A stretch of DNA of 24,154 nt, from IMG/VR virus record IMGVR_UViG_3300044294_000136, positions 1 through 24,154 of that record. One strand, given 5' to 3'. Origin of the DNA: a virus. The position numbers were made by a program, and so were the translations under genes. Every line of letters starts with the position of its first letter. The first letter of the stretch is position 1. The notes beneath the pieces were generated by a model. It saw only the letters and a program-made list of their open reading frames with translations. It was not told the origin of the DNA and ran no database searches. Positions 9,317 to 24,105 of the stretch are shown piece by piece.

Positions 9317-9384
9317 GTCGTCTCGCTCTCTCCGCGCAGTTGCCGGCGGGCTGCTGCGATGTGCTCGGCGTGTCGGGTGGTCAT
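9313..9384 (-). CDS. Tiny ORF (23 aa) between dnaB and the next gene
   Basis: Reads MTTRHAEHIAAARRQLRGES then ETT. Its ATG overlaps the dnaB stop (ATGA) and its TGA overlaps the next ATG, exactly as in every neighbouring junction. GGGGGATCGC precedes the start. It is basic and helical. It may be a true micro-gene or merely a coupling leader carrying ribosomes across the gap; sequence alone cannot tell. Confidence 0.4.
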   Translation of the reverse strand: MTTRHAEHIAAARRQLRGESETT

Positions 9385-10670
9385 GCGATCCCCCTGGTCG
9401 GACTCCAGGCGACGGACGCGAGGCGGGCGTAGTGGCCCTGCATCTGCAAGGTCGCGGTGGCGAGTGGGCCGTGGCGGTTCTTGGCGATCGTCACGGTGAC
9501 TTCGGGGATCTCCGGGTCGGGTCGGTGCAGGAGCACGACAACGTCAGCGTCGTTCTCAGCGCCGCCCTCGCGGAGATCGGTGAGGCGCGGACCCTCGGTC
9601 GACTTGCCGCCCTCGCGGTTCACCTGTGCCATCGCTACGACACAGGCTCCGGTCTCGCGGGCCAGCAACTTCAGATCGCGGGCGATCTGCGAGACCTCCT
9701 CGGCCCGCGAGCCGTTGCGGCGGACATTCGACGGCGTCATGAGCTGGAGGTAGTCCACGACGATCAGCGCGAGGTCTTCGTGCTGGCGCTGCACGTCGCG
9801 CGCAGCCCTTCGGAGACCCTGGACCGACAGGTTCGACGAGTCCTCGACGAAGATCGGCATCTCGTCGAGCTCAGCGTGCTTGTCGGCGATGATCGCCCAG
9901 TCGGACTCGGGCACGGTCGCGTTCATCAGACCGGTCAGGCTCACGCCAGCGTGGGCCGCGAGCAGGCGGTAGGTGACTTCCTTCTCGGGCATCTCCAGCG
10001 ACGCGAGCAGCACCGCGTGGCCGTGCTTGTGGGCGACCTGGAGCGCGAGGTTGGTGCCGGCGATCGACTTGCCGCCACCGGGTCGCGCGCCGAAGATGAC
10101 GAGCCGCCCCGGGGCGAGTCCGCCGATGCTGCGGTCGATGTCGGGCCAGCCGGTCGGGATCACGCCGCCAGTGCCGTGCTCGGCTTCGTCGAGCGCGTCG
10201 GGGAGCAGGTCGGCCAGGCGTCGGGCCTTGGTGACATTGCGGCCGCGGCAGGCTTCGTCGACTCGCTGGCGAGCCTCCTCGCGCGCCTGGTCGAGGTCGC
10301 CGACGAAGGTGCCGCCGATCTCCTGAAGTGCGACGCCAGCCTGCTGGAGCGAGCGCAGCCCGGAGTCGGTGCGCACCTTTGCTGCGAACGCGGGGGCGTT
10401 GACGATGGCTGGCGCATCCTCGGCGAGCGAGAACAGCTGGACCGGGTCGATGGGCGGCTTGCGGTCAGCGAGCGCGAGGCGGACGGACGCGGGGTCGGGC
10501 CGGTTGCCGGCCGCCGCGACTCGCAGGATGGCGGCCCAGATGTCCTCGTGCTCGGGCCGGTAGAAGTCGCTGGGCTCAAGGTCGAGTTCGTCGGGGTTCT
10601 TCCAGCCGACGAGGCAGGCGCCGATGACGGCACGCTCGGCGTTGGTGTCGGTGCGCGCGTCGCCGATCAT
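9381..10670 (-). CDS. dnaB: Replicative DNA helicase, DnaB family
   Basis: Hexameric fork helicase (429 aa; close to bacterial DnaB). The N-terminal domain (1-~100) starts 'AERAVIGACLVG'. RecA-like ATPase domain: Walker A 'GARPGGGKS' (194-202), 'LLASLEMPEKEVTYRLLA' (221-238), Walker B 'LIVVDYLQL' (302-310), 'VVAMAQVNRE' (344-352), 'LTDLREGGAENDADVVV' (363-379) and the Arg-finger region 'AKNRHGP' (396-402). All key motifs are present. Start ATG at 10670 has AAGGAGG upstream; the open frame runs 12 codons further. The start overlaps the stop of the loader-like gene (ATGA), so helicase and loader are coupled, as expected for a replisome pair. Confidence 0.95.
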   Translation of the reverse strand: MIGDARTDTNAERAVIGACLVGWKNPDELDLEPSDFYRPEHEDIWAAILRVAAAGNRPDPASVRLALADRKPPIDPVQLFSLAEDAPAIVNAPAFAAKVRTDSGLRSLQQAGVALQEIGGTFVGDLDQAREEARQRVDEACRGRNVTKARRLADLLPDALDEAEHGTGGVIPTGWPDIDRSIGGLAPGRLVIFGARPGGGKSIAGTNLALQVAHKHGHAVLLASLEMPEKEVTYRLLAAHAGVSLTGLMNATVPESDWAIIADKHAELDEMPIFVEDSSNLSVQGLRRAARDVQRQHEDLALIVVDYLQLMTPSNVRRNGSRAEEVSQIARDLKLLARETGACVVAMAQVNREGGKSTEGPRLTDLREGGAENDADVVVLLHRPDPEIPEVTVTIAKNRHGPLATATLQMQGHYARLASVAWSPTRGIA

Positions 10671-11515
10671 GCTCGCCTCCTTGCCTGGCGCTGCTCCCAC
10701 TCCCACTTCGCGTACTCCTCGGGGCTGAGGCCCGAGGGCGGCTCAACGAGCTGGGAGACGTGGGTGGTGATGCGGCTGGCTGGTCGCTCGGTTGGTCGGG
10801 TTGGTCGGGCCTTGAGGAGCCACTGGGAGAAGGCGGCGTTCCAGTTGACGGCTCGTCGGTCGTTGGCTTCGGCGTGAAGTCGGAACGCTTCGGCTTCGCG
10901 CTCGACGTCGATGCCGCGGTCGGCGTGCTCGTGGTGCTTGGGGGTGGGCTGCCAGTCGTCCGGGATCCTGCGCGCCGGTCGCTTGCGACCGCTCTTGGCG
11001 CTCACGGCGCGACCATCACCATCACCATCACCATCACCATCACCATCACCATCACCTTCGTGGTGGGGGGGATCAACGCGCGTGGTCACGTCGTGTTGAG
11101 GTACACCTGCCCGCGTGGACACGTCGTGGTCACTGCGTGTCCCCGTCGTGGTCACTGCGTGCGAGGGGGGCTGGGAGGGGGTCGACACGTCGTGGTCACG
11201 GCGTGTTTTGCACGCCTCGCAGACCGTCTCGTAGCGCTTGTCGATGCGGGCGTGGTCCGACAGCTTCGGCAGGTAGATCACCCCGTTGGCGCGCCGGATC
11301 CTGCCGTTGGCGACGAGCTGTTCCAGCAAGTCTTCGACGTCGCACGAGTCGGCCGGGAGGATGCGCATCTTGAACTCCATCGGCTCGTCGTCGAGGTGCC
11401 CGCAGTCGGCCGCGTAGCACCACAAACCCTGGTAGAGCAGGCGGGCGAGCGGGTCGAGAGAGACGATGTGCTTGTCGGTGAAGAAGTCGGGCTTGAGGTG
11501 CCGTCCCTTCGGCAT
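10667..11515 (-). CDS. Replication initiator / helicase loader-like protein
   Basis: 282 aa. The N-terminal ~100 residues ('FFTDKHIVSLDPLARLLYQG', 'ADCGHLDDEPMEFKMRILP', 'RIRRANGVIYLPKLSDH') resemble the winged-helix part of phage replication proteins encoded before DnaB. Next comes a low-complexity linker (~110-175) with repeated His-Asp-Val-Ser/Thr-Thr motifs and a Gly-Asp repeat. The C-terminal part ('NWNAAFSQWLLKA', residues ~240) resembles the short tail of DnaD/DnaT-like loaders. The role, bringing DnaB to the origin, is inferred from fold and position. The linker DNA contains four iteron-like repeats. Start ATG at 11515 has GAGGAGG upstream and overlaps the previous stop by one base (TGATG). 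Confidence 0.75.
   Translation of the reverse strand: MPKGRHLKPDFFTDKHIVSLDPLARLLYQGLWCYAADCGHLDDEPMEFKMRILPADSCDVEDLLEQLVANGRIRRANGVIYLPKLSDHARIDKRYETVCEACKTRRDHDVSTPSQPPSHAVTTTGTRSDHDVSTRAGVPQHDVTTRVDPPHHEGDGDGDGDGDGDGDGRAVSAKSGRKRPARRIPDDWQPTPKHHEHADRGIDVEREAEAFRLHAEANDRRAVNWNAAFSQWLLKARPTRPTERPASRITTHVSQLVEPPSGLSPEEYAKWEWEQRQARRRA
11012..11056. repeat. ACCATC hexamer repeat, 7.5 units
   Basis: Perfect tandem hexamer inside the loader-like gene; on the coding strand GGTGAT repeats encode alternating Gly-Asp. At 50% A+T it is the most AT-rich patch of this gene and adjoins the iterons at 11081-11205. Copy number is likely unstable. Confidence 0.9.
11081..11205. repeat. Four iteron-like direct repeats, candidate replication origin
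   Basis: CGTGGTCACGTCGTG (11081), CGTGGTCACTGCGTG (11125 and 11147) and CGTGGTCACGGCGTG (11191): 15 bp, each differing by one or two bases, with start-to-start spacing 44, 22 and 44 bp. As 22 and 44 are not multiples of 3, the copies are translated in different frames (for example Asp-His-Asp-Val versus Ala-Val-Thr-Thr), so the DNA is conserved rather than the peptide. Iterons inside the initiator gene are the arrangement of the lambda origin within gene O. Origin function is inference. Confidence 0.6.
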
Positions 11516-11697
11516 CAGTCCTCCTCGTCGCTGAGTAGCCAGCGCGCCGAGAACATGTGTCCGGCGGCGCACATCAGGTAGGCGACGCGCACTCCTCGCG
11601 CGTCGTTGTCGGGCCGGGCGTGACCGTTGGCCGGTGCGGAGCAGATGAAGCAGGGGTGGTCGACGACCGCGATGTCGTGCTCAGAACGGAGGCTCAT
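11515..11697 (-). CDS. Small zinc-ribbon phage protein
   Basis: 60 aa with Cys16-x-x-Cys19 ('CFIC') and Cys43...His46 ('CAAGH'), suggesting a single zinc site; otherwise unrecognised. The ATG at 11697 has GGTGG upstream and lies 17 bases inside the end of ssb; a GTG at 11721 is possible but further inside. The stop shares a base with the loader-like gene start. It lies between ssb and the loader, so a role in replication is possible but unproven. Confidence 0.62.
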   Translation of the reverse strand: MSLRSEHDIAVVDHPCFICSAPANGHARPDNDARGVRVAYLMCAAGHMFSARWLLSDEED

Positions 11698-12130
11698 CGC
11701 TGCCACCGCCCCTCGGCGCACCCCACGGGTCGTTGCTGGTGGATGCCGCGGGACGCTCCCACGAAGATCCGTTGTCGGTCCGCTGGACGCGCTCGCCCTT
11801 TGGCTTCTTCACGGGCAGCGCGACGTCGGCGAACTTGATCTCGAGCGAGGTGCGCTTCTCGCCGTCGCGGCCCTCGTACTCGCGCTGGAACAGGCGGCCG
11901 GTGACGACGACCGGGACGCCCTTGAGCACCTTCTCGGCTACAGCTTCGGCGTCGTCGCCCCAGACGCTCACGCCGACGAACAGCCGGTCGCCGTCCTCCC
12001 AGGAGCCGTCGTCCTGCTTCTTGGACTCGGAGCAGGCGACGCGGAACGAGGCGACGGCCTTACCGCTGGAGGTGAAGCGCAGCTCGCTGTCGGCGACGGC
12101 GCGTCCGTTGATGGTGATGGTGGGCAGCAT
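11681..12130 (-). CDS. ssb: Single-stranded DNA-binding protein
   Basis: OB-fold SSB (149 aa). Residues 1-~110 follow the family: 'TITINGRAVADSELRFTSSG', 'VASFRVACSE', 'FVGVSVWGDDAEAVAEKVLKG' and 'VVVTGRL'. A flexible linker with Arg/Gly/Ser follows, and the acidic tip ends Asp-Glu-Pro-Pro-Phe, the variant of the DDIPF tail that recruits partner proteins. It would coat the unwound strand during phage replication and RecE-like recombination. ATG at 12130 follows GGAG; the gap to the preceding gene is 3 nt. Complete and apparently functional. Confidence 0.95.
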   Translation of the reverse strand: MLPTITINGRAVADSELRFTSSGKAVASFRVACSESKKQDDGSWEDGDRLFVGVSVWGDDAEAVAEKVLKGVPVVVTGRLFQREYEGRDGEKRTSLEIKFADVALPVKKPKGERVQRTDNGSSWERPAASTSNDPWGAPRGGGSDEPPF

Positions 12131-12133
12131 GGG

Positions 12134-12406
12134 TCAGGCTCCGATCTGGAGGTTGATCCCGTTCCTGGCGCGATAGCCACGGCGGGAGAGGCAGCTGGTG
12201 CAGAGGGTCAAGGTGGAGCGGCAGGCTTGGGTGGGAAGGCGTTCGTCGGGTCCCATGCGTCGCCACTGGGAGCGGACGATGAGTTCGCGGCGGCAGTCCT
12301 CGCAGGTCTCGGAGCGGGTGACGATCGGCTCGTCCGCGGGGCGAGGCCCGGTCCATCGGCGAATGAGGCCGTCCTGCACCCACTCGCCGCCGGTCAGCTC
12401 GTTCAT
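12134..12406 (-). CDS. Cys-rich small phage protein
   Basis: 90 aa. Two Cys pairs, Cys35-x-x-Cys38 ('CEDC') and Cys69-x-x-Cys72 ('CTSC'), plus Cys62 and many Arg residues, point to a zinc-binding, perhaps nucleic-acid-binding, protein. Family not recognised. ATG at 12406 is chosen for the ATGA overlap with the previous stop and GGGTGGCGG upstream; the longer open frame is shadow. It ends 3 nt before ssb. Confidence 0.65.
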   Translation of the reverse strand: MNELTGGEWVQDGLIRRWTGPRPADEPIVTRSETCEDCRRELIVRSQWRRMGPDERLPTQACRSTLTLCTSCLSRRGYRARNGINLQIGA

Positions 12407-12585
12407 GCCGCCACCCACACCTTCACCCGTCGGAACGGGTCGAAGCGCCACGCGCCGTCGGTCAGCGCGTCCTTGGGGCCGGGCTGCGGGAACGAGTCGA
12501 AGCCCTGGCAGTAGGCGCAGGTCTTCGCGGTGGCGCCGATGCTGACGCCGCACCACTCGCAGCGAGAAGTGGTGGGCTCGCTCAT
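12403..12585 (-). CDS. Small double-CxxC zinc-ribbon protein
   Basis: 60 aa. Cys9-x-x-Cys12 and Cys23-x-x-Cys26 ('CEWCGVSIGATAKTCAYC') form a compact zinc ribbon; the remainder is 'GAWRFDPFRRVKVWV'-like and basic. Starts 'MSEP', as does the zinc-ribbon protein at 19488-19706. ATG at 12585 with GGGCGGT upstream; ATGA overlaps with both neighbours. Function unknown. Confidence 0.7.
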   Translation of the reverse strand: MSEPTTSRCEWCGVSIGATAKTCAYCQGFDSFPQPGPKDALTDGAWRFDPFRRVKVWVAA

Positions 12586-12773
12586 GCCGCACCGCCCAGC
12601 ACCATGTCGGTCAGCAGCGCCTCGTCAGCCTCGTCCCGCGCGCACTCGTGGATGCGGCGGGCGACGACGGCACTGACGGCGGCGGTCGGGGGCCACTGGA
12701 CGGGGCCGAGCTGCTCTGAGGCGAGGGGTGCGTGGTCGGCGTTGGAGCGGATGGTTCGTCCTGGTCGGGTCAT
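12582..12773 (-). CDS. Small hypothetical phage protein
   Basis: 63 aa, no family recognised. The C-terminal half ('RRIHECARDEADEALLTDMV') is an acidic helix. ATG at 12773 shares one base with the rusA stop (TGATG); its ribosome site is weak, so it probably depends on reinitiation. Confidence 0.58.
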   Translation of the reverse strand: MTRPGRTIRSNADHAPLASEQLGPVQWPPTAAVSAVVARRIHECARDEADEALLTDMVLGGAA

Positions 12774-14503: not shown

Positions 14504-14778
14504 CGCTGCTCCTCGGGGGTGGTGCATCGGGCGGCGTGCCAGTCGGTTTCGGCCTCAGTGCGCGTCGGACGCACGACCGCGTCAGGGGTGTCGGCAGCGC
14601 GGTAGCCGTCAGGGCCGCCAGGCTTGAAGCGGCCCTCCGCGCGTGCGGCGTTGCGCGGGATGACGAGCCCGCAGCACTCGGTGGGCGTCCGCCGCCGTCG
14701 TGGACGGACGGGTCCGATGGGGGCGCCGTAGGCCGTCGGGAAGTGGCGGCGGTAGTCGTGCTCACCCACGCTGCTCAC
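14500..14778 (-). CDS. Hypothetical phage protein
   Basis: 92 aa, Arg/Pro-rich, not recognised. Adjacent Cys residues at 35-36 and one near the C-terminus (Cys85) are the only notable residues. The first start, GTG at 14778, lies 17 bases inside the end of the methyltransferase gene, with GAGGGCG upstream; a second GTG at 14769 is equally plausible. Confidence 0.58.
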   Translation of the reverse strand: MSSVGEHDYRRHFPTAYGAPIGPVRPRRRRTPTECCGLVIPRNAARAEGRFKPGGPDGYRAADTPDAVVRPTRTEAETDWHAARCTTPEEQR

Positions 14779-16507
14779 CGCCCTCGGGGCTGGCGGGGGC
14801 GAGGGCGCGGTCGAGGTGCGCGAGGAGCTGGCGGCCGACGTGCTCGGCGTAGACCGGCGGGATCGACTCCTGCATCCCCTTGACCGTCATCCAGTCGATC
14901 CCGAGGAGGGCCTGCTGGACGGCGATGGAGCGGGGGACGTAGCCGCCACCACGCTCGACCCGGGCGGCGTACCGGTCGCGGGGTGCGACCTGCGCGAGGG
15001 TCTCGCCCGCGAGCCGCTTGGCACGCCTCGAGCCGCCGTACACGCCGGCGACCTGGAGCGCCCGGTCGTGCGGGGCGTGGTCAGGCACGGCGAGGTCGAT
15101 GTTCGACTCGAACAGCCGGTGCCTGTCGAGGACAAGCCGTGTGCCGTCCTCGTCGGCCGCGGCGAGCCCGAACGACCGGCCGCAGAGCAGGACCGGGGCG
15201 ACCATCTGCGACCGGGCCTGCTCGACGTTCTCGATCACCCACGGCCGACCCGTCAGCGCCAGCAGCTCACGCGTCGCGGCGATGAGGCGCTTGTGCTTCG
15301 CGCGGGCGTCGGGGTTGCCGGCCGTGGCGATCGAGTACCCCTGGCAGTTGTGGACTACATAGCCGAACGCCACGAACGAGTGGTCCTCGGCGACGGTGAT
15401 GTCGTAAACCCGACCGAAGCCGGCGTATGCGACGGGCTTGCGCTGCTTGAACCAGTGCAGTCCGTCCACGTCTCGCGTGTACCTGCCACGCCCCGTCGTG
15501 ATGCCGACTGACCAGTAGTTGCGCTGGTTGACGGTGCGGCCTTCGATGACGACGGTGTCGGACGTGACGACCTCACGAACGTTCGCGTTGTAGCCCAGCG
15601 ACAGCGCGAGGAGCCGGAGCTGAGATGCGAGCTGCGTTGACACAGTGTTGGCCGTCCAGCCGTTCGGTCGGACGGTGCCGTCGCCAGACAGGTACCCCTC
15701 AAGGAACCGTGCCCGCTCTGCCTCGTCGCAGCCGAGCACCCATGTCGGGATCGACTTGTTGGCGGCGCCATGTCCGAACTCCGAGCGCAGCCAGGCCGCA
15801 AGTTCGACGTCCTGACGGGTGTAGCGCTCACAGGACTTCCCCGTGGCAGCCACTCGCCAGTCCGTCCCGGCCTGCTGCTCGAACTCTTCAGCCTTGCCAG
15901 ACCCAACGGCGATCATGATGCCGTCTCGACCAGTCCATCCATCGGCGACATAGCGCCCGGCGAGCCACGGGTCGCAGCACCACTCGCCGGGCGTCTGGAC
16001 GGCAAGCGGTGACGAGACGAAGTGCCCGCGGAGCTGTTCGGCGGGCGTCCAGTCGGCAGGCCCGAGGCCCCACGTCCTGCGACGAGCTGTGCTGTCGTAG
16101 GCGTACCGCTGTGGGCGGGAGTAGAAGCGGTGGTCTGGCGTGGTGGTGATGGGGCCGACCCGCACGAGCTCGCTCTCGCGCGTCATCGTGTCGGTAACGG
16201 GACGCCATCGGTTCCGATGGGTCCACACCTCGTCCCCAACGATGACTTCCTCGATCGGGACCGAGCCTCGGCGTGTGAGTACCGGGGTGCCGGCCGCGAA
16301 GCAGGGCGGGGATGCGTGGATCGCGTCGTACTCGTGGCCGTGCTGGGCGAGGTAGGCGAGGGCGTCGCCGTGGATGAAGGTGCCGGGGTAGCGGGTGCTG
16401 TGGTCGGCGATGTCGACACCGGTGACGTCGAAGCCGGCGGTCTGGTAGCCGGCCGCTGCGCCGCCCTGGCCGCAGTAGAGGTCGAGCAGTCGTGGCCGCC
16501 CCATCAC
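14762..16507 (-). CDS. DNA cytosine-C5 methyltransferase interrupted by an intein
   Basis: Precursor of 581 aa. The enzyme parts are residues 1-68 and 388-581. Motif I is 'LLDLYCGQGGAAAGYQTAGF' (7-26, AdoMet binding), the catalytic motif IV is 'ASPP' + Cys, motif VI is 'WVIENVE' (423-429) and the C-terminus has 'SIAVQQALLGIDWMT'. The intein (69-387) sits exactly between Pro68 and the catalytic Cys, which becomes Cys388, the +1 residue. Splicing joins Ala-Ser-Pro-Pro to Cys-Gln-Gly-Tyr-Ser and leaves a 262-aa enzyme. It would methylate cytosine in phage or host DNA, perhaps against host restriction; no partner nuclease is nearby. GTG at 16507 (GTGA overlap, GAGGGCGG upstream) or ATG at 16504. 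Confidence 0.9.
   Translation of the reverse strand: MMGRPRLLDLYCGQGGAAAGYQTAGFDVTGVDIADHSTRYPGTFIHGDALAYLAQHGHEYDAIHASPPCFAAGTPVLTRRGSVPIEEVIVGDEVWTHRNRWRPVTDTMTRESELVRVGPITTTPDHRFYSRPQRYAYDSTARRRTWGLGPADWTPAEQLRGHFVSSPLAVQTPGEWCCDPWLAGRYVADGWTGRDGIMIAVGSGKAEEFEQQAGTDWRVAATGKSCERYTRQDVELAAWLRSEFGHGAANKSIPTWVLGCDEAERARFLEGYLSGDGTVRPNGWTANTVSTQLASQLRLLALSLGYNANVREVVTSDTVVIEGRTVNQRNYWSVGITTGRGRYTRDVDGLHWFKQRKPVAYAGFGRVYDITVAEDHSFVAFGYVVHNCQGYSIATAGNPDARAKHKRLIAATRELLALTGRPWVIENVEQARSQMVAPVLLCGRSFGLAAADEDGTRLVLDRHRLFESNIDLAVPDHAPHDRALQVAGVYGGSRRAKRLAGETLAQVAPRDRYAARVERGGGYVPRSIAVQQALLGIDWMTVKGMQESIPPVYAEHVGRQLLAHLDRALAPASPEGGEQRG
15347..16303 (-). mobile_element. Intein with LAGLIDADG homing endonuclease domain
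   Basis: 319 codons. Splicing blocks: Cys1 in 'CFAAGTPVLTRRGSVPIEEV' (block A), 'TTTPDH' (block B, Thr and His of TxxH), 'VYDITVAEDHSFVAFG' (block F) and 'VVHN' before Cys+1 (block G, penultimate His, terminal Asn). All nucleophiles of a class 1 intein are present. The insert carries two LAGLIDADG-like motifs, 'LAGRYVADG' (precursor 182-190) and 'LEGYLSGDG' (269-277), each with its acidic residue, so the homing nuclease is probably active. The target site encodes the universally conserved Pro-Cys of the methyltransferase, a place hard to delete without killing the enzyme. Confidence 0.92.
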
Positions 16508-20222: not shown

Positions 20223-20489
20223 TCAGCGGGACCTGGCGGCCGAGCGCTTGGTCTGGCCGGGGATCACGAGGGGCCGGTCCGTCTCGGGGCGCTCCGTGTG
20301 CATCCGCTCGATCTGCTCGACCATCTCCCGCGTCCACCGGAACTTGGTCCGCGAGATGCGGATGGCCGGCCAGTCGTTCGCGTTGCGCAGGTCGTGCAAC
20401 TCGCGGCGGTCGCGGAGGCCGAAGTGCTTGATCATGTCGTCCTCGCTCAGCAGGTTCTCGGGAACCTGGGCGGCTGGTCGGGCGCTCAT
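20223..20489 (-). CDS. Excisionase-like HTH DNA-binding protein
   Basis: 88 aa. Residues ~13-60 ('LLSEDDMIKHFGLRDRRELH', then 'WPAIRISRTKFRWTREMVEQI') have the winged-helix layout of MerR/Xis-type proteins: a helix-turn-helix followed by a basic turn with the characteristic 'RISRTKFRWT' strand. The C-terminal tail is basic. It may steer the integrase to excision or act as a small regulator; the sequence cannot decide. ATG at 20489 overlaps the antirepressor stop (ATGA). Confidence 0.68.
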   Translation of the reverse strand: MSARPAAQVPENLLSEDDMIKHFGLRDRRELHDLRNANDWPAIRISRTKFRWTREMVEQIERMHTERPETDRPLVIPGQTKRSAARSR

Positions 20490-21301
20490 GCCGCACCCCG
20501 CAGCTCGCCGAGCAGGCGGTCCAGACCCTTGCCGGTGATGCGGATCTGCGGCGCCACCTGGAGGCGCTCGCCCGACGGCTTGTAGCGCGGCGGGTAGATG
20601 CGAGGCTCGAGGAGGCCCTGCTCGCGGGCGCCCTGCTTGATGTGGCGCTGCCCGCCCTGGTGGAACGTCCAGCCGAGCGAGTCGAGCTTCGCCAGGAGCC
20701 GGTTCTGTCCGATCATCACGCCGACGTTGCAAAGCATCTGCGCGGCCTCGCGAGCCGCGAACGACCCGGCCCCCGACGCGATGTCCTTCCACGCCTGCGC
20801 GGCCGGCGTCAGCTCTTCGACCTTCGTCTCGGCGGTCTCGGCGCGCGCGGTCAGCGAGGCGATCCGCTCCGATGCGACGGTGAGCGCCTTCAGCATCAGC
20901 TCGTCGTCGGTCATCTCGATCGCTGGAGCAGCGACCTCGGCCTCGCGTGTCTTGACCGCGAAGTACGCCTGGGCGGCGGCGACCTCGGGCTTGCGGGGGT
21001 CGCCGTTCATCACCACGACGTAGGCGCCAAAGCGCGTCAGGTGGTAGTCCGGCACGGCGCGCTGTGCGCCGGAGCCCAGGTCGACCATCTTGCTGGCGTC
21101 AGCAACATGGTCCGTCACGGTCTCGCCCTGGTTGCCGAGCGAGATGATCGCGCGGTCGATGGCAGCGGCGAAGTTCCGCCACTGGTCGTAGGTCATCGCG
21201 TCGGCGAGGTCGCGGGCGGACCAGAACTCGGACCCGTCGGGACGGGTCTGCTTGATGGCGTCGAACGGCGACGGGGCGCCATCAACAGGGGTCAGGGTCA
21301 T
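20486..21301 (-). CDS. Antirepressor: DinD/BRO-like N-terminus plus KilAC domain
   Basis: 271 aa. The N-terminal half resembles DinD/BRO-type phage proteins: 'FWSARDLADAMTYDQWRNF' (26-44), 'GSGAQRAVPDYHLTRFGAYV' (77-96) and 'NGDPRKPEVAAAQAYFAVKT' (99-118). A short coiled coil follows (~128-165). The C-terminal part, 'REAAQMLCNVGVMIGQNRLL' then 'LGWTFHQGGQRH', is the KilAC/ANT domain of phage antirepressors. Such proteins inactivate the repressor, often during host stress. ATG at 21301 has GAGAGGAAG upstream and overlaps the Cro-like stop (ATGA). Confidence 0.82.
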   Translation of the reverse strand: MTLTPVDGAPSPFDAIKQTRPDGSEFWSARDLADAMTYDQWRNFAAAIDRAIISLGNQGETVTDHVADASKMVDLGSGAQRAVPDYHLTRFGAYVVVMNGDPRKPEVAAAQAYFAVKTREAEVAAPAIEMTDDELMLKALTVASERIASLTARAETAETKVEELTPAAQAWKDIASGAGSFAAREAAQMLCNVGVMIGQNRLLAKLDSLGWTFHQGGQRHIKQGAREQGLLEPRIYPPRYKPSGERLQVAPQIRITGKGLDRLLGELRGAA

Positions 21302-22299: not shown

Positions 22300-22716
22300 A
22301 TGACGGCAGCAATCCACCCGTGGCGCAGGTTCCGCGCCCACGACGGCTGGAGGCTCGTCCGCCACGATGGCGGCGAGCGGGGCGTGACGCTGTTCGCCGA
22401 GCGCAAGGTGAGCCTGCGACGCGGGCTCACGCAGGTGCAGCGCCGCTGCACGATCCTCCACGAGTGCCTGCACGTCGAGCGCGGTCCCGTGCTGAACGGG
22501 ATGCTCGAGGCCGAGGAACTGCGCGTGCGGCGCGAGACGGCGCGACTCCTTATGCCAGACATCCGCGTCGTCGGCGACGCGCTCGCGTGGGCACAGTCCA
22601 ACGAGGAGGCGGCGCATGAGCTGTGGGTGACGCCGGACTGCCTAGCGGACCGGCTGGGTGCTCTGCATCCCGTCGAGCGCCACTGGCTCCGCCGCCGCCT
22701 GGCCGAGGTGGACTAA
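22300..22716 (+). CDS. ImmA/IrrE-family metallopeptidase
   Basis: 138 aa. His-Glu-Cys-Leu-His at 54-58 in 'ILHECLHVERGP' is the zinc HExxH site; the third ligand is probably Glu71 in 'MLEAEELRVRRETARLL'. In ICEBs1 of Bacillus the ImmA protease cuts the ImmR repressor to start excision; with the adjacent repressor lacking self-cleavage, the same logic is likely here. It follows the repressor by 33 bp, lacks a ribosome site, and overlaps the integrase gene tail-to-tail by 4 bases (CTAA). Confidence 0.83.
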   Translation: MTAAIHPWRRFRAHDGWRLVRHDGGERGVTLFAERKVSLRRGLTQVQRRCTILHECLHVERGPVLNGMLEAEELRVRRETARLLMPDIRVVGDALAWAQSNEEAAHELWVTPDCLADRLGALHPVERHWLRRRLAEVD

Positions 22717-23921
22717 GTCAGCTCCGGCGTCGGCTTGGTCAGCACCTCGCCCGGCACGACGTTGTCGCGGCGGCCCATCAGTAGGGAGTCCAGACGGTCG
22801 GCCGCCACGTCGTTCATTTCGTCGATCATGCGGCCGTAGATGTTGATGGTCGTCTGGATGTCTTCGTGGCCGAGGCGTCGCTGGATCTCGGCCAGGCTCA
22901 GGCCGGCGGCGTGGCAGATGGCGACGTGGCTGTGCCGGAGCCAGTGAGGCGTGGGCTTGCGTGCCGTGAGGCCGGCGGCTTCAACGAGACGGGGCCAGCG
23001 GGTGTCGCGGAAGGAGTTGATGTTCCACGGCCCCTCGCGCTTGACCCCTGGTCGACCGTCCTTGAACGTGAAGACGAGGTCGCCCGGCGCCTTGCCGACC
23101 ACGCGACGGCGCACCACCTCGACACCGGGGCCGAGGACCCGCAGCCGACGCACCGCGGCGGCCGACTTGCCGCCCTTGGTGATGCCGACGCGACTGCGGA
23201 GCACCTGCTCCATCGTCACGTAGACCCGCTCGCCGTCATCCTCCACGGATCCGGCGGCCAGTGCCACGGCCTCACTGATGCGCCAGCCCGTCGAGGCGAT
23301 GAAAGCGACGAGGTCCGCGGCGTCGGCGTCGACCGCACGACCCTTCTCGATGAGCGCGAGGAGCTCGGGCAACCGCAGGCCCTTGGGTTGCGTCTTCTGC
23401 CGGCGGGGCAGCTCGGTCTCCTTGCACGGGTTGTGCGGCACCAACTTCCTCGTCTTCGCCGCGCCCCAGCCGAAGATCTGGTGCAGGATCGCGTGCCGAT
23501 CAGCGATCGACTTGGGCGACAACGGCTTCTTGGTGACGGAGGACTTGGCCGTGCGGAGGTCGTCCACCCAGCGCTGCACGTCCATCTCGTCGACCATCGC
23601 CGCCTCCCGGTGACCGAACCACGGGTCGATCCAGTTCTCGTAGTCGCGCTTGTATCCCGCCCAGATGTTCGGGGTGACGTCGCCCTCCTTCGACTCGAGC
23701 CACCGCGCCGCGAGGTCGGCAACCGTGATGCCCTTGGGCCGCTGCTGGGCGGCGATGATCTTCAGCGCCTCTTCGACGCCGACCGCATTGATGAGGTCGG
23801 CGAACTTCCCCGCTGCCTTGGCGCTGTCGAAGCTGGTCGACGACTGCTTCTTGCCCTGGCGGTAGAGCACCGCCCACGTCTTCTCGCCGGACTTTGTCTG
23901 CCTCTCGCGCACGCTCGCCAC
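22713..23921 (-). CDS. int: Tyrosine integrase
   Basis: Site-specific recombinase (402 aa) for integration and excision at the tRNA-Ser. The N-terminal arm-binding domain (1-~60, 'GEKTWAVLYRQGKKQSS') is AP2-like; SAM-like core-binding domain ~65-155; catalytic domain from ~180. Active-site residues: Arg214 ('TGWRISEA'), Lys near 249-252, His326-x-x-Arg329 ('HWLRHSH'), His352 ('LGHEDIQTT') and the nucleophile Tyr362 ('INIYGRM'). All are present, so it should be functional. Start GTG at 23921 with GAGAGGATG upstream. Its 5' end faces the tRNA gene 100 bp away. Confidence 0.95.
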   Translation of the reverse strand: MASVRERQTKSGEKTWAVLYRQGKKQSSTSFDSAKAAGKFADLINAVGVEEALKIIAAQQRPKGITVADLAARWLESKEGDVTPNIWAGYKRDYENWIDPWFGHREAAMVDEMDVQRWVDDLRTAKSSVTKKPLSPKSIADRHAILHQIFGWGAAKTRKLVPHNPCKETELPRRQKTQPKGLRLPELLALIEKGRAVDADAADLVAFIASTGWRISEAVALAAGSVEDDGERVYVTMEQVLRSRVGITKGGKSAAAVRRLRVLGPGVEVVRRRVVGKAPGDLVFTFKDGRPGVKREGPWNINSFRDTRWPRLVEAAGLTARKPTPHWLRHSHVAICHAAGLSLAEIQRRLGHEDIQTTINIYGRMIDEMNDVAADRLDSLLMGRRDNVVPGEVLTKPTPELT

Positions 23922-24020: not shown

Positions 24021-24050
24021 CAGAGGGAGCGGGATTCGAACCCGCGGTGG
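24021..24050. other. Probable attachment core in the tRNA-Ser 3' half
   Basis: The integrase gene lies next to the 3' end of the tRNA with the phage on that side. Tyrosine integrases of this kind usually recombine within the T-arm to 3' end of a tRNA, with the phage restoring that part. Only one end is in the window, so the core cannot be defined by comparison. Confidence 0.45.
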
Positions 24051-24105
24051 GTCTCCCCACGACCGCTTTCAAGGCGGTTCCGATCGGCCACTCCGGCATC
24101 CCTCC
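24021..24105 (-). tRNA. tRNA-Ser (UGA anticodon)
   Basis: 85 nt. Acceptor arm GGAGGGA pairs with TCCCTCT (G-U at the end), discriminator G as usual for serine. Anticodon stem ACCGC/GCGGT with loop CTTGAAA gives anticodon TGA (24069-24071). Long variable arm GTGGG-GAGA-CCCAC and T arm GCGGG-TTCGAAT-CCCGC. CCA is not encoded. The gene is complete, so the host still makes this tRNA after integration. Confidence 0.95.

Follow-up and report, generated by a model that had tools for sequence, protein, structure and literature searches.

A candidate replication origin with iterons at 11-bp pitch within a phage initiator gene

The origin of phage lambda lies within gene O, where, as in the O genes of Stx phages, dyad-symmetric iterons occupy the middle of the gene, with a strand-asymmetric tract on their 3' side and a helicase-recruiting function downstream (PMC5043065, PMC7466680). 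At oriL of phage SPP1, the initiator binds direct repeats in its own gene 38, beside an unwinding element (PMC6316719). For the RepA_N plasmid pSK41, the winged-helix N-terminal domain of the initiator binds Rep boxes located centrally in rep, the linker, which is coded by the origin, is dispensable, and the C-terminal domain is exchangeable; these boxes depend on a tract rich in A+T (PMC5703833). In the cluster A mycobacterial prophages Miko and Rachaly, a RepA-like initiator of 320-350 amino acids, in which residues 95-132 are predicted to form an HTH, is sufficient for replication, and the origin was suggested to lie within or next to repA, the intergenic regions examined showing no repeated motifs (PMC7157519).

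The locus described here is part of a stretch of viral DNA of 24,154 nucleotides, referred to as the window, and comprises the following features:

9381-10670, minus strand: replicative helicase DnaB, the next gene downstream of the initiator gene, with a 4-bp overlap (PF03796, 2e-63; PF00772, 1e-11)
10667-11515, minus strand: replication initiator gene, 282 amino acids (PHROG 1408), with the array in its linker-coding part
10667-11005, minus strand: C-terminal domain, DnaT-like, proposed helicase contact (PF17948, E 0.016, below the curated cut-off)
11012-11056, minus strand: short tandem tract, candidate strand-opening element, (GGTGAT)7.5 on the coding strand, equal to (ACCATC)7.5 (Tandem Repeats Finder)
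11081-11212, unstranded: iteron array at 11-bp pitch, with good units at 11081, 11092, 11114, 11125, 11136, 11147, 11180 and 11191
11204-11515, minus strand: N-terminal domain, predicted to be winged-helix-like, proposed iteron reader (AlphaFold2, mean pLDDT 92)
11681-12130, minus strand: single-strand DNA-binding protein SSB, upstream and in the same direction (PF00436, 1e-21)

An earlier note on this DNA had placed a set of repeats in a "helicase-loader gene". The encoded protein matches the PHROG 1408 profile "replication initiation protein" with an E-value of 4e-23 over residues 5-244 of 282, and its annotated phage homologues carry the name "RepA-like replication initiator"; initiator is a more fitting name for the gene than helicase loader. 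The predicted fold of the N-terminal domain was read as winged-helix-like. Its best matches among solved structures are not significant and include several winged-helix regulators and the RepA_N structures 4pt7 and 5kbj, the latter two being weak matches with query-normalised TM scores of 0.52 and 0.58 and E-values of 0.12-0.16, while predicted phage replisome organizers are matched well by the model. No Pfam or NCBIfam model covers the domain, and at E 0.01 none of 63 family members matched any Pfam model, RepA_N (PF06970) included. The AlphaFold2 model of the C-terminal domain has a pLDDT of 77 and found no match in the PDB. The linker between the two domains is coded by the array and the (GGTGAT)7.5 tract.

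This phage has few close relatives. A match to the window was obtained with IMG/VR contig 3300045117_000478, L001 being identical over 6.8 kb, and when the initiator served as the single query against viral and genome contigs, the same contig and an Arthrobacter prophage were the only hits. A wider set of relatives was reached through alignments of the N-terminal domain. The family of this domain also occurs in 37 plasmid records (PLSDB, H61-H75), possibly phage-plasmids.

Elsewhere in the window, all on the minus strand, a tRNA gene (24021-24105) lies beside a tyrosine integrase (22713-23921) and may mark an attachment site, and a Bro-N/KilAC antirepressor is encoded near the integrase end (20486-21301). 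A DNA methyltransferase-like gene (14762-16507) is interrupted by an apparent intein that includes a LAGLIDADG endonuclease portion (Hint_2, 5e-9; LAGLIDADG_3, 9e-7).

The four 15-bp repeats of the earlier note are confirmed: CGTGGTCACGTCGTG at 11081-11095, CGTGGTCACTGCGTG at 11125-11139 and 11147-11161, and CGTGGTCACGGCGTG at 11191-11205 match at 13-15 of 15 positions, and the exact sequence CGTGGTCACNNCGTG is found only at 11081, 11125, 11147 and 11191 on both strands of the window. Their spacing of 44, 22 and 44 bp also stands, but the phasing in steps of 22 bp that had been read from it does not. When the locus is read in 11-bp steps, further units in the same phase appear at 11092, 11114, 11136 and 11180, each agreeing with CGTGGTCACGT in 8-11 of its 11 positions, together with diverged units at 11103, 11158 and 11169 and a partial unit at 11202. 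The true pitch of the array is thus 11 bp, and the four 15-bp repeats are the best units of this longer array. The consensus of the unit, CGTGGTCACGT, is dyad-symmetric, with the dyad CGTGNNCACG. Independently, Tandem Repeats Finder reported periods of 22 and 11 at 11113-11161.

To judge how often such repeats arise by chance, the codons of the initiator gene were shuffled synonymously 20,000 times. No shuffle gave four copies of CGTGGTCACNNCGTG and two gave three. The observed self-match was reached in 49 shuffles at lag 11, in 175 at lag 22 and in 29 at lag 44, and the self-match at lags 10, 12, 21, 23 and 33 was unremarkable. Among 150-bp stretches of the window, the array locus has the highest self-match at both lag 11 and lag 22. 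The repeats had been said to be translated differently. Two frames are indeed used, but each by two copies, copies 1 and 3 (HDVTT/HAVTT) sharing one and copies 2 and 4 (RSDHD/RRDHD) the other. As three successive 11-bp units occupy all three frames, the case against coding constraint is stronger at the 11-bp pitch, and coding constraint as the cause of the repeats is ruled out by the shuffles together with the suppressed synonymous change in relatives described below. Rfam has no match in the array locus. Cumulative GC skew, suggested in the earlier note as a check, has no turning point near 11 kb and hence speaks neither for nor against an origin.

The hexamer tract next to the array, described previously as less GC-rich, has a GC content 16 points lower, and its duplex is among the 1.3% least stable segments of the same length in the gene; its strand asymmetry is only moderate. 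In relatives the balance of these properties is different. Their tracts are strand-asymmetric, 53 of 70 falling in the top 5% of segments of their own gene, while only 27 of 70 are among the weakest 10% as a duplex and the mean GC difference is -0.05. The tract types include (GGGGAACA)n, (GGTGAT)n and (TGATTCC)n. In 33 of the 34 genes with both elements detectable, the tract is located 3' of the array, at a median centre distance of 50 bp. Formation of an R-loop or G-quadruplex was rejected as a universal role of the tract, since the G-rich strand is not always the same one: in actinophages it is the coding strand, in enterobacterial phages the template.

To see how widely the pitch is shared, 240 loci and phage records were reduced to 96 initiators, non-redundant at 60% identity, and the self-match spectrum of the linker DNA (gene nt 240-500) was compared with synonymous shuffles at P<0.01. 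Lag 11 was the most strongly raised (mean z 2.03; 32 of 96 genes), followed by lag 8 (1.41; 28) and lag 22 (1.34; 22). A signal at 11 or 22 bp was present in 49 of 96 relatives, ranging from actinobacterial to enterobacterial phages, compared with 3 of 137 neighbouring ORFs; the control lag pairs 9/18, 12/24 and 13/26 passed in 3 to 5 of 96. The pairs 8/16 and 10/20 were also raised (33 and 21 of 96), the former because of the tract. No 11-bp peak was seen in the C-terminal parts of the same 96 genes, and the smaller peak in the part coding for the N-terminal domain (mean z 1.13; 18 of 96) arises because some actinophages have iteron copies inside it. By this self-match test 47 of 96 relatives, Mx8 and Schmidt among them, have no significant signal at 11 or 22 bp.

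The units themselves differ between groups. Mycobacterial and Gordonia-type phages have CTCGCGA(G/C)ACC; elsewhere there are groups with AAGCACCGTGC-like and TTAACGGTTAA-like units, a Vibrio phage has ACCACGCGTCA and the Arthrobacter prophage GCGAGCGCTCG. They tend towards dyad symmetry (mean z 1.14, n=49). A motif scan of viral contigs with GTGACCACGACGTGN{0,2}ACG gave 18 loci, and as none of them was accompanied by an initiator, they were taken as chance matches.

Over the array and tract, synonymous divergence drops in four groups of relatives to 0.00-0.3, compared with about 0.4-0.6 in the N-terminal domain. The values are 0.06-0.17, down from about 0.35-0.6, in the 26 genes of the L113 group, 0.08-0.29 in the L025/Hum25 group (12 genes) and 0.09-0.33 in the L062 group (16 genes), which has some genes in common with the L174 group (29 genes), so that these two are not fully independent. 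The linker peptide generally has a low amino-acid identity; the L174 group reaches 0.00 at nt 481-510, a stretch that is itself 97% identical in protein. In the L113 gene (nt 169-192) and similar actinophage genes, iteron copies lie inside the part coding for the N-terminal domain, and the L113 group shows a second dip to 0.25 over them. In the relatives tested, the repeats thus appear to be under selection at the DNA level, independent of the peptide. The earlier note had proposed a comparison in which the array should persist while the linker peptide drifts, and this is what was found; its reading of the repeats as a protein-binding array and a lambda-O-like origin gains support from the drop in synonymous divergence and from the frequency of the periodic signal in initiators relative to neighbouring ORFs.

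The similarity of iteron profiles between relatives correlates with the identity of the N-terminal domains (rho 0.52, reached in none of 1000 permutations) and not with that of the C-terminal domains (rho -0.08). That the iteron sequence follows the N-terminal and not the C-terminal domain suggests the former as the iteron reader; part of the correlation reflects shared descent, and we take it as support and not as proof. In a sample of the L113 group, the N-terminal domains average 70% identity, and the identity of the C-terminal domains is below 25% in 85 of 105 pairs. Initiators of this group, e.g. L113, L105, L107 and L119, have unrelated C-terminal domains, N-terminal domains of ~70% identity and common iterons, with a mosaic junction just 3' of the tract. 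These comparisons point to the N-terminal domain and the origin as one evolutionary module. More tentatively, a mobile module of reader and origin may be envisaged, in which N-terminal domain and 11-bp-pitch iterons travel together, C-terminal domains are exchanged, and the strand-asymmetric tract, which is not AT-rich, opens and serves as a recognition sequence repeated along the single strand, much as the DnaA-trio does; we regard this fuller picture as possible but rather doubtful.

Since relatives keep the DNA pattern while the surrounding protein drifts, the pattern very probably marks the replication start of these phages. In the window, we consider it highly likely from the comparative evidence that positions 11012-11212, where the initiator gene codes for the linker, form the replication origin of the phage, read by the N-terminal domain. 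Dyad-symmetric sites inside an operon would also suit an operator, at which the initiator or another phage regulator controls transcription of the replication operon instead of the start of replication, and replication initiators often regulate themselves. The array, however, is buried within the gene at some 300 bp from the start, and a sigma-70-type scan of 10600-12700 found no promoter-like site. An operator would moreover leave the conserved adjacent tract with its fixed polarity and the near-absolute synonymous conservation unaccounted for, and we judge it improbable.

Even less credible is neutral slippage in an unconstrained, disordered linker beside a microsatellite. In its favour, the linker peptide shows poor conservation and the array adjoins a perfect hexamer microsatellite. 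About half of the 96 relatives, however, have the 11-bp pitch in repeats of unrelated sequence, and slippage predicts neither this recurrence nor the suppressed synonymous change nor the tendency to dyad symmetry. A partition site would be centromere-like, as in plasmids whose centromere-binding proteins recognise 11-bp repeats; such direct repeats are known at some plasmid centromeres, e.g. R1 parC, and the N-terminal domain family is found on plasmid records as well. Against it, the presence of a tyrosine integrase indicates an integrating prophage, the proteins searched, whose annotation is not exhaustive, included no partition gene, and the iterons track the initiator's own N-terminal domain, so that this explanation, too, has a very low probability.

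For the array as an origin, the following mechanism can be proposed. The winged-helix N-terminal domain would bind the dyad-symmetric sites every 11 bp, and this pitch would bring successive protomers onto one face of the helix, where they may form a short filament. The filament could strain the adjacent tandem tract, (GGTGAT)n in the window, until it opens, and the opened tract may be kept single-stranded. The C-terminal domain might then help to place DnaB, the product of the adjacent downstream gene; the SSB of the phage is encoded nearby. In the full-text literature of the open PMC library, we found no experiment on any member of the family and no earlier description of 11-bp arrays in it.

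To our knowledge, few origins have been mapped in actinobacterial and environmental temperate phages. A sequence rule emerges: dyad-symmetric units at 11-bp pitch, with a short-period, strand-biased tract after them, in the linker of a recognisable initiator. It predicts origin candidates in many phages ahead of experiments, and the pattern suggests small replicons from which vectors could be built. A further question, open to testing, is how GC-rich phages melt their origin without an AT-rich element. The specificity of the origin would evolve together with the domain that reads it, and the rest of the protein would be exchanged.

The comparative evidence makes a strong case for an arrangement already known from lambda O, SPP1 gene 38 and the RepA_N plasmids, in which the origin sits within the gene for its initiator. 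As in lambda, whose gene O iterons were recovered by the same pipeline, the iterons lie in the middle of the initiator gene and the tract is 3' of them. The lambda iterons, however, are 18-19 bp long at spacings of 20, 24 and 23 bp, in contrast to the 11-bp pitch found here, and the lambda tract is AT-rich, unlike (GGTGAT)n. Membership in the lambda O family was rejected, hhalign giving a probability of 0.1% against the N-terminal part of lambda O and the pitch being different as well. With SPP1 oriL, where the unwinding element is AT-rich, the likeness is one of arrangement. The RepA_N plasmids pSK41 and pTZ2162 share the central position of the sites in the initiator gene, the linker coded by the origin and an exchangeable C-terminal domain; none of the 63 family members gave a RepA_N Pfam match, and the weak fold matches have E-values above 0.1. 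The RepA-like proteins of Miko and Rachaly are longer than the 282 residues found here and resemble the present protein as initiators with an origin suggested in or near the gene. By sequence, the initiator family is separate from both lambda O and RepA_N.
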